Shown here: positions 1,834 through 6,902 of the stretch, piece after piece | Layout of the letters: each line of letters opens with the position of its first letter | Numbering within the stretch: position 1 is the first letter of the stretch | Source of the DNA: Armatimonadota bacterium | GTDB taxonomy: Bacteria > Armatimonadota > DTGP01 > JAKQQT01 | Length of the DNA: 35,735 bases | Direction: 5' to 3' | NCBI GenBank assembly: GCA_036504095.1 | Contig: DASXVS010000028.1 | Coordinates: forward strand, 1 to 35,735 | Notes under the pieces: model-generated | What the model was told of the DNA's origin: nothing | Database searches by the model: none | What the model saw: only the letters and a program-made list of their open reading frames with translations | Translations under genes and position numbers: made by a program

Positions 1834-2484
1834 TCATTCGGCCTGGCGCGTGGTGAGTTCTTCCAGAGAGAGCATCTTGTTCTGCACAGCGTACAGGACT
1901 GCCTGTGTGCGCGATTGCAGGTTCAGTTTGTCCAGAATGTTGTGCATGTGCGTGTCCACAGTCTTCAGGGACGAATGGACTTCCTCGGCGATCTCGCGGT
2001 TGCTCTGCCCGCACGCCGCGCGCTTGAGGATTTCGAGTTCGCGGGGACTCAGCCGTGGGGCTTCGCGAACGGCCTGATCGCGGCGCCAACCCAGTGTCTC
2101 CGCCGGGATACCGGAGGTGACGCGCCGGATGACGTCAAGCAGGCCGGCGATCCCGGTTTGCTTGGATACGAAACAGGCGTCGTGCCCGACGACCTCGGCC
2201 GCCGCGCGCCACTCGCTCTGGTCCGTCAGGATCACAGCGGCGCATTTCCTGCTCTTGCGATACTCCGCAATGGCCTGAAACACCGCGTCCATTCCAGGGT
2301 AGTAGCCCGCCAGAATGACGTCCGGAGCGCTCTTCATCAACGCGGCGCCAACGTCCTCTCCGCCGCTCGACGCGGCGACCCACACCCCTTCCGCCTCGTT
2401 GATCGTATTCGCGGTGATTTCCCTGACCAAGCGTCGGCGTTCTATTAGGAACACCCCAACCGATTTGTCTGCGTTGCCCAGCAC
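1834..2484 (-). CDS. LuxR/NarL-type regulator with degenerate receiver
   Basis: A 216-residue protein with an N-terminal receiver-like domain (about residues 9-125) and a C-terminal LuxR helix-turn-helix (about 145-210: LSPRELEILKRAACGQSNREIAEEV, SLKTVDTHMHNILDKLNLQSR). The DNA-binding domain is textbook. The receiver is not: where a phosphoacceptor Asp is expected after PDVIL, the sequence reads AGYYPGMD (Gly60), and the acidic pair at the domain start is reduced to Glu15. The switch Lys (CFVSKQ) remains. It is therefore probably not controlled by Asp phosphorylation. The start is GTG, with AAGGAGG seven bases upstream. No histidine kinase is nearby. Upstream lies mraZ in the same orientation. 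Confidence 0.9.
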   Translation of the reverse strand: MLGNADKSVGVFLIERRRLVREITANTINEAEGVWVAASSGGEDVGAALMKSAPDVILAGYYPGMDAVFQAIAEYRKSRKCAAVILTDQSEWRAAAEVVGHDACFVSKQTGIAGLLDVIRRVTSGIPAETLGWRRDQAVREAPRLSPRELEILKRAACGQSNREIAEEVHSSLKTVDTHMHNILDKLNLQSRTQAVLYAVQNKMLSLEELTTRQAE

Positions 2485-2689
2485 AGCGCTTCCTCCTTGA
2501 GACCGAGCCTATCGAACGAGAATTCCGTCCAATGATCTTGTACCATGCCTGGGTGTTCAACTGAGGGGATTAATGCTGGCCTCCAGGACGAATGTTGCAC
2601 CAGCGAATGCTGGACGGGAGTCATACTTTTCCCCTATGCCCGGCCGCTTAGGCGGACAATCGAGGCAACGGGATGACGCCAAACGGAGG

Positions 2690-2710
2690 CAGCCGGGGTA
2701 ATCCCGGCTG
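2690..2710 (-). terminator. Hairpin downstream of mraZ
   Basis: CAGCCGGG (2690-2697) and CCCGGCTG (2703-2710) form a perfect 8-bp stem with a 5-nt loop, 28 bp after the mraZ stop. There is no T-run on the minus strand, so termination is plausible but unproven; it would separate mraZ from the regulator gene. Confidence 0.4.
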
Positions 2711-2738
2711 ACGGGGATCCGCGGTTTCCAGGACCCTC

Positions 2739-3521
2739 TCAGGCGCGGTTGAGGGCGGCGCCGTCCTGGATGTGCCACAGCGCCGCTTCCACGCTGGGAA
2801 ACACGGGACGCGAAAAGCCGAGGTATTGATCGAAGAACCCGTAGATGGACTCCGGTGCGACGATGAGCAGGTTGCTCCATCGGTCCTCGGGCCATTGGAA
2901 ACGCATCCCGGCCAGCATCGCATCGAGCCTCGAGACCTCGCGGACATCGAGCACAACCGGCTCCTGGCCTGCCAGAGGATGCTGGGCGAGCATGTCCCCA
3001 AGCTGAACGGCGGCATTGGCATCAGGCTCTCCGACGCATTCCAGGATAGGGATGCCGAACAGGCTTCGCCGGACAACGTGAAACGGCCCGGGATCGGCGC
3101 TGTTCCCCACGCTGAGTTCAAACGGGCTGCTGTGCCGGGACACACCGCGGGGCAGGTCCTTGCACAGCCGGTCCCACCGCACCTTGTCCCAAACCTCAAC
3201 ACCCTCGCCGATTCCAACCACGGCAACGTCCGCGCCGGGACGAACGTGGGCGAATTCCCGAAGGGGCGCCGGGACCAGGAACCGGCCCGTACGCTCGTGC
3301 GCCCGGGCCTCATGCGCCGCGGAAAGATAGAAACGCTGGAATGTAACGCTGGCGCTGAAACGGGTCATCACCTGGCTCCATTGGTCGGCGCTGACAGCCA
3401 GCAGACAGCCTCCGAGGCCCTTCGTCAGGACAAATGGATCGCCTAAAAGGGAACGGAAGCGTTGGGGCATAGTGACCCGTCCCTTGGGATCCACGGTATA
3501 GACAAAGGTGCCAGAGAACAT
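2739..3521 (-). CDS. mraZ: MraZ-family protein with STAS-like C-terminal domain
   Basis: A 260-residue protein. Residues 1 to about 140 are a tandem SpoVT/AbrB-fold MraZ: MFSGTFVYTVDPKGRVTMPQ is the first repeat, and ERTGRFLVPAPLREFAHV is the second with the usual R-ahead-of-I/L-P motif. Ordinary MraZ ends near residue 140-150 and regulates the mra/dcw division cluster. Here about 110 residues follow with the pattern of a STAS/anti-sigma-antagonist fold (PVVLDVREVSRLDAMLAGM, then a late SVEAALWHIQ helix). No rsmH, ftsL or other division gene is adjacent. AAAGGA precedes the start codon. MraZ is confident; STAS is a pattern-based inference. Confidence 0.88.
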   Translation of the reverse strand: MFSGTFVYTVDPKGRVTMPQRFRSLLGDPFVLTKGLGGCLLAVSADQWSQVMTRFSASVTFQRFYLSAAHEARAHERTGRFLVPAPLREFAHVRPGADVAVVGIGEGVEVWDKVRWDRLCKDLPRGVSRHSSPFELSVGNSADPGPFHVVRRSLFGIPILECVGEPDANAAVQLGDMLAQHPLAGQEPVVLDVREVSRLDAMLAGMRFQWPEDRWSNLLIVAPESIYGFFDQYLGFSRPVFPSVEAALWHIQDGAALNRA

Positions 3522-3539
3522 TCGAAGGTCCTTTCGCAG

Positions 3540-3595
3540 GGTGTTAAATGAAATAGCAGGAACAATGACGCTCAGGTGTTAAGGAAATTGACACC
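3540..3595. promoter_or_regulatory. Three GGTGTYAA boxes upstream of mraZ
   Basis: GGTGTTAA occurs at 3540-3547 and 3575-3582, and its inverted form TTGACACC at 3588-3595. The last two make a near-palindrome with a 5-bp centre (AGGTGT/ACACCT). MraZ proteins bind repeated short GTG-containing boxes ahead of their own genes, so autoregulation is a reasonable idea, but the box differs from published consensus as I remember it. The site also lies upstream of the divergent gene at 3783. Confidence 0.45.
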
Positions 3596-3782
3596 TTTGT
3601 ATAAATCATTGGCAGCGAGGCCGCGGGCCTTGAGGGCAGAACCATACGTAACATGTACATATTTCCAGCCCTTACCTACACTGGGTAACACCCCCACCGC
3701 AGGGTCTGCCACGATTTATCACCTGGACCAATGCGCCGTCCTGGGATCTCCGCGTTCAATCTGAGATTGGAGGTGCCACACG

Positions 3783-3992
3783 GTGGTCAGATTGCACAGT
3801 CGACTCCTCGGAGAAGACATTATATGCGTCGAGGATGGGCAGAAATCCCCTGAGGAACCCGGGATCGTCTGCTATACCCGCGGCGAATTGGCCGCGCTGA
3901 AGGGGTTGGACCCGGCGGCGGTGAAGGCCGTTCATCGTGCCAAAAAACACTTCGGGGGCAAATACATCGGCCCGAGCCCGGCCGGCGGCTAA
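3783..3992 (+). CDS. Small hypothetical protein, 69 residues
   Basis: I do not recognise a named family. The start is GTG with GGAGGT at 3769-3774, eight bases upstream, which is ideal spacing. The protein is hydrophilic with a central ordered-looking part (EEPGIVCYTRGELAALKGLDPAAVKAVHRAKKHF read in pieces), one Cys in each half, and a basic C-terminal helix. There is no signal peptide or membrane segment. It is divergent from mraZ and followed by a hairpin at 4065-4098. The good ribosome-binding site and non-random composition make it likely to be a real gene. Confidence 0.65.
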   Translation: MVRLHSRLLGEDIICVEDGQKSPEEPGIVCYTRGELAALKGLDPAAVKAVHRAKKHFGGKYIGPSPAGG

Positions 3993-6545: not shown

Positions 6546-6902
6546 ATGGGCAGCGAACGCTTTGAGGATGTTGATGTCTGGAAGAGGGCGCACGGATTCG
6601 TGCTGGACGTTTACCGGCTGACCGAACGCTTTCCGAAGTGCGAGACGTTTGGTCTGACCTCTCAGTTGAGGCGGGCCGCGGTCTCTGTGCCTGCCAACTT
6701 CGCCGAAGGATTCAGGAAGCGGACCCATGCGGACAAGGGAAGGTACTACAACATCGCGCAGGCCTCCTTGGAGGAGTGTCGCTACTACCTCATACTGGCT
6801 CGCGATCTGCAATACGATGACACAGCCGCTCTCTCGCACGAGCTGGATGAAGTGGCCCGAATGCTGGATCGCTACGCGCGAGCCATGTTGCAGTCCGGGT
6901 AA
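6546..6902 (+). CDS. Four-helix-bundle protein (S23/Avd-like family)
   Basis: A 118-residue protein of the family known from Leptospira 23S rRNA intervening sequences (S23) and related to Avd of diversity-generating retroelements. Family marks in order: DVDVWKRAH near residue 8, LTERFPKCETFGLTSQLRRAAVSVPANFAEGF (about 25-57, read in pieces), then AQASLEECRYYLILARDL. It is predicted to be wholly helical, basic and cytoplasmic. No reverse transcriptase or variable-protein gene lies nearby, so it is an orphan rather than part of a recognisable DGR. It has weak GC contrast with its neighbours but interrupts the transport operon and lies between inverted repeats. Its function is unknown. Confidence 0.9.
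   Translation: MGSERFEDVDVWKRAHGFVLDVYRLTERFPKCETFGLTSQLRRAAVSVPANFAEGFRKRTHADKGRYYNIAQASLEECRYYLILARDLQYDDTAALSHELDEVARMLDRYARAMLQSG

Follow-up and report, generated by a model that had tools for sequence, protein, structure and literature searches.

What does an MraZ regulator do when it is encoded away from the division genes and carries an additional C-terminal domain? MraZ is expected as the first gene of the division (dcw) cluster, with a length of about 150 residues, and we know of no signal to which it responds. Within the stretch of DNA analyzed here (the window, 35,735 nucleotides from an Armatimonadota bacterium), the mraZ gene instead encodes 260 residues and stands alone, with the dcw cluster elsewhere in the genome. 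The original prediction had read the C-terminal ~110 residues as a STAS-like domain and suggested that MraZ output could respond to a partner-switch signal. We favor, at a probability of roughly 60%, a reading in which the protein is an MraZ-type regulator with a diverged operator that would control its own gene, rsmH-ftsL, and murA in trans, and whose STAS domain would dock a partner. The gene and its parts are:

2739–3521, minus strand: mraZ-STAS gene, 260 amino acids, ATG start (open reading frame list and ten orthologues)
3162–3521, minus strand: MraZ (double AbrB/SpoVT-like) domain, residues 1–120 (Pfam, Foldseek, and residue table)
3084–3161, minus strand: linker, residues 121–146, mostly of low model confidence (pLDDT)
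2745–3083, minus strand: STAS domain, residues 147–259 (AlphaFold2, Foldseek, and profile matches)

For the N-terminal part, Pfam PF02381 (MraZ) matched residues 1–120 in two stretches (E = 2e-17), and both MraZ/AbrB-like half-domains were found with their DxxxR-type loops, the residue table showing D11-x-K13-G14-R15 and G79-R80 retained and an inserted residue in the second loop. The double AbrB/SpoVT-like fold and the D-x-K-G-R loop are shared with the MraZ proteins of E. coli and Mycoplasma genitalium, as is the occurrence of an operator-like element both at the gene's own promoter and at dcw. Unlike these proteins, however, the fusion carries an extra STAS domain, is about 110 residues longer, lies away from dcw, and has changed loop residues. 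It scored 66 bits against the NCBI equivalog model TIGR00242, below the cut-off of 98.35, and is thus an MraZ paralogue rather than an equivalog.

The tail, taken alone, gave a weak match to STAS_2 (E = 0.0016; 19.1 bits vs a curated Pfam cut-off of 29.2). Its relatives within the fusion family reached E-values of about 3e-7 for STAS or STAS_2, and a profile built from ten tails retrieved, among solved structures, the anti-sigma antagonists RsfB (4.8e-5) and 4hyl (2.2e-4), so that the profile matches are weak but consistent. In an AlphaFold2 model built with eight family members (mean pLDDT 78, pTM 0.50), the tail followed the STAS order b-b-a-b-a-b-a-(b)-a, while pLDDT fell below 50 at linker residues 125–128 and 130–142; at this pTM, the placement of the two domains relative to each other is uncertain. 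Foldseek ranked crystal and cryo-EM structures of MraZ first, those of M. genitalium and M. pneumoniae among them, followed by 4hyl, RsfB, SpoIIAA, and RsbS, each with a probability of 1.00. A disordered or unrelated C-terminus was ruled out by the AlphaFold2 and Foldseek results, and, at the level of predicted structure, the reading frame is confirmed as an intact MraZ followed by a genuine STAS domain, so that an assignment first made by pattern turned out to be right. Neither Pfam nor NCBIfam holds a model for an MraZ-STAS fusion, and a search of the accessible literature found no paper connecting MraZ with STAS domains, the two that mention both being unrelated by title.

Next, we surveyed the distribution of this architecture. 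Complete fusions were identified in 10 of 291 Armatimonadota genomes, distributed over five families (f1, to which the window belongs, and f3, f7, f18, and f22); since the same architecture is kept across all of these, an assembly or frameshift artefact was ruled out. Within f1, two genera were examined, represented by the window genome (G000) and by G001. All fusions found among 397 relatives belong to Armatimonadota, with sparse sampling beyond the phylum, and a scan for close relatives across 84,980 species yielded a single locus, from the second f1 genus. In a tree of the MraZ domain, the ten fusions, together with a variant from G030, formed a single clade (bootstrap 99/SH-aLRT 98) separate from the dcw-encoded MraZs of their own genomes. 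The G030 variant (f3; L041:565-1551) carries an unrelated tail of ~200 residues without a Pfam match, in which a D...ECKNK pattern reminiscent of PD-(D/E)XK nucleases was noticed by eye.

The fusion coexists with a normal mraZ directly before rsmH in f3 and f22, which identifies it as a divergent paralogue by origin and, together with the single clade in the tree, as one old paralogue line. In f1, f7, and f18, rsmH lies on a different contig from the fusion, which is the only MraZ detected, although genome completeness is just 69–88% in f7 and f18. The window genome is 98.6% complete and yielded a single MraZ gene; a second, normal mraZ was searched for in this genome and not found. The possibility that the fusion is a divergent paralogue beside a normal dcw copy therefore does not apply to the window genome, but does apply to its f3 and f22 relatives. 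Its dcw cluster (rsmH-ftsL-ftsI) is located inside the 373-kb contig C71, where it begins at rsmH and is preceded by a divergently oriented gene instead of mraZ. As had been predicted, no division gene lies beside mraZ-STAS within the window. Across the fusions, we found no conserved neighborhood or partner genes, except for one neighbor common to the f7 pair.

Could the STAS domain be the input of a true partner switch, as first suggested? An RsbW/SpoIIAB-type kinase would then phosphorylate the domain and thereby switch DNA binding, or the domain would sequester an anti-sigma factor. Anti-sigma antagonists are indeed the closest fold to the tail, and SpoIIAA, RsbV, RsfB, and 4hyl resemble it in predicted fold and topology. 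The phospho-acceptor motif of SpoIIAA and RsbV is D-S-S-G-L-G. The window protein, however, has D-A-M-L-A-G at this position, without the phosphorylatable Ser/Thr of D-[ST]-x-G, and the second f1 genus has E-T-I-L-V-G, so that the two f1 genera differ in the acceptor itself. Over the ten proteins, the acceptor varies: four have Thr, as a switch would allow, but G007 has Pro, and Ala is found in the window, in f18, and in each of the three f22 members. The fusion further differs from these antagonists in its attached DNA-binding domain and in the lack of a kinase neighbor, no gene for an anti-sigma kinase, phosphatase, or sigma factor being seen next to the window gene. The one case of a candidate partner is in an f3 genome (G003), where a protein joining a receiver domain to an RsbW-type HATPase_c_2 domain is encoded ~3.5 kb upstream of mraZ-STAS (L037:5162-6262); it has no counterpart beside the fusion of the f3 relative G017, and an anti-sigma kinase with a sigma factor is otherwise not encoded beside the fusions. 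A phosphorylation switch of the classical Ser type is probably not how the domain works, and we consider a partner switch unlikely. The STAS domains of the stressosome proteins RsbS and RsbR, which serve as scaffold parts rather than free antagonists, provide another comparison, as RsbS was among the Foldseek matches; unlike these, the fused domain has no stressosome gene context and is joined to MraZ.

Alternatively, the STAS domain may be a relic, or a plain dimerization add-on without signal input. Conservation is lower in the tail than over the whole protein (15–28% vs 27–44% identity between the window protein and its f3, f7, f18, and f22 counterparts), and the G030 variant carries an unrelated tail in its place. 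Against this, the fold, two Gly, D192, R194, and L248-W249 are invariant in all ten fused proteins from the five families, which argues for a function that has been kept, for instance protein docking, and we consider a relic or plain add-on rather unlikely. Under the favored reading, the STAS domain would most likely be a docking site for a partner protein, through which DNA binding or oligomerization would be tuned.

To identify what the fusion might bind, we turned to the upstream region of the gene, where three elements stand out in f1:

3576–3594, plus strand: predicted operator, an N7 dyad GTGTTA-AGGAAAT-TGACAC (dyad search and murA promoter match)
3541–3547, plus strand: a further half-site, GTGTTAA, in the same orientation as the dyad and at a distance of 35 bp (motif scan)
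3566–3574, plus strand: TGACGCTCA (TGAGCGTCA), with further copies in the promoters of rsmH and mraZ-STAS in the second genus

The GTGTTA motif was first spotted by eye, before any genome-wide scan, and the later scans are therefore the stronger evidence. GTGTTAA occurs 67 times in the 4.68 Mb of the window genome, where ~203 copies are expected from base composition, i.e., it is about three-fold rarer than expected, a scarcity that would fit avoidance everywhere except at a few promoters. Two of these copies precede mraZ-STAS (3541 and 3576), one precedes rsmH, and one lies in the rsmH-ftsL gap. A longer form, GTGTTA-N17-TAACAC, is found in the rsmH-ftsL gap and before a HAD hydrolase gene of G000, and before rsmH in G001. 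Genome-wide, with at most one mismatch, this N17 dyad has three copies in G000; G001 has two, which lie at the promoters of rsmH and mraZ-STAS, the latter not having been among the sequences from which the pattern was derived. We estimate the chance of an N17 match in a 300-bp promoter at ~2e-4, with a background of at most about three per genome in a reversed control.

The N7 form in the G000 mraZ-STAS promoter (GTGTTAAGGAAATTGACACC) is matched at murA of the same genome (GTGTTAAGGAAATAGACACC), the 20 bases from 3576 agreeing with the murA promoter at 19 of 20 positions, and murA of G001 carries GTGTCAGACAAATAGACAC (GTGTCA-GACAAAT-AGACAC) at the equivalent position. In the loci selected by GTGTTAA, the four exact dyads found all have 7 or 17 bases between their halves, a difference of about one helical turn. 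Sites lie upstream of the orthologous rsmH, murA, and HAD genes in both f1 genera. TGAGCGTCA was detected in the mraZ-STAS promoters of both genera and in the rsmH promoter of one (window 3566–3574; L218, L033), with 11 copies of the TGACGCTCA element in 408,700 bases of the window genome; it may be an additional element or belong to the operator itself. A scan of window positions 2480–3900 for sigma-70 promoters and terminators returned nothing.

These elements could also belong to a different regulator of mraZ-STAS and of dcw and murA, in which case MraZ-STAS would be its target and would read other DNA. This is the main rival to the favored reading because MraZ operators consist of direct repeats spaced by ~10 bp, and an inverted pair with 7- or 17-bp spacers, as in f1, would better suit an ordinary dimeric helix-turn-helix regulator. 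Some dyad sites are also found at genes without an evident division link, and an orphan LuxR/GerE-type regulator without a receiver-domain match is encoded just downstream of mraZ-STAS (window 1834–2484, minus strand). In the second f1 genus, however, this LuxR gene was not found next to the fusion, while in both genera examined the element accompanies the MraZ gene as well as the classical MraZ target cluster. MraZ autoregulation is, moreover, established in E. coli (PMC8475190, citing Eraso 2014), and a clear MraZ-like array is present at the f22 fusion. Overall, we regard ownership of the dyad by another regulator as possible but doubtful.

The comparison with other MraZs of the phylum offers a further view of operator divergence. 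All ten fusions keep D11-x-K-G-R but share a Q78 to T/S change, an insertion at position 76, and an R/K107 to A/E/G change, which 36 further MraZs from the phylum show rarely or not at all; the fusions also have P, R, or G at position 12, where the others mostly have D, and F at position 81. Operators differ in accordance with these changed loop residues. Upstream of several mraZ genes located in dcw clusters of the phylum are GTGGA boxes 10–11 bp apart, which served as a positive control of the box scan, whereas the fusions have a GTGTTA dyad in f1 and a GTGCC array in f22. The latter, which has the MraZ operator layout of 3–4 direct boxes ~10 bp apart, consists of GTGCC, GTGCC, GTGAC, and GTGCC at a spacing of 10-10-12, is kept in three genomes, and in its exact three-box form occurs once in each of them, at the fusion; the window has the inverted dyad and half-site. 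In the f22 genome G051, the dcw mraZ has retained GTGG-type boxes, as seen by eye. No canonical GTGGA boxes were found before the fusion in f1, f3, f7, or f18, and no operator was recognized there in f3, f7, and f18. K-mers common to the upstream regions of the fused mraZ and rsmH were at chance level in f7, and 11-mers common to both regions in the f18 genome G021 were reached in 2–5% of shuffles.

Taken together, this suggests a scenario in which a paralogue of the dcw-borne MraZ would have arisen once within Armatimonadota, and its DNA-reading loops and operators would have diverged afterwards. By analogy with other MraZs, the fusion probably forms a ring oligomer, displaying one STAS domain per subunit. 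The f1 fusion, encoded alone, would most likely act in trans through the predicted GTGTTA-N7/N17-TAACAC dyads on its own gene, the rsmH-ftsL end of dcw, and the cell-wall gene murA. Regulation would be repressive by analogy, since MraZ is a repressor in E. coli and M. genitalium (PMC8475190). More tentatively, a protein signal received by the STAS domain may gate division and cell-wall expression, with dcw and murA taken over in trans through a re-invented operator and the cluster-borne MraZ replaced in up to three families.

For M. genitalium, the repressor activity of MraZ was reported to need linkage of mraZ, operator, and division cluster (PMC8475190). The present locus is a natural case of an MraZ outside the cluster, with a candidate input domain and a rare operator-like element common to dcw and murA, and lends itself to directly testing MraZ control without linkage as well as signal input. 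The two families with both paralogues may in turn illustrate how operator specificity can split.

A few minor observations were made along the way. G243 has four MraZ genes (L064 and others), two of which are the most like the fusion clade but have no STAS domain. G051 encodes, ~1.5 kb downstream of the f22 mraZ-STAS, a fusion of a sigma-70 factor with a GGDEF (diguanylate cyclase) domain (L043:11313-12689). Finally, the window includes a gene for a 23S rRNA intervening-sequence (four-helix-bundle) protein (6546–6902, plus strand), located between a sugar ABC permease gene and an alpha-galactosidase-like gene.
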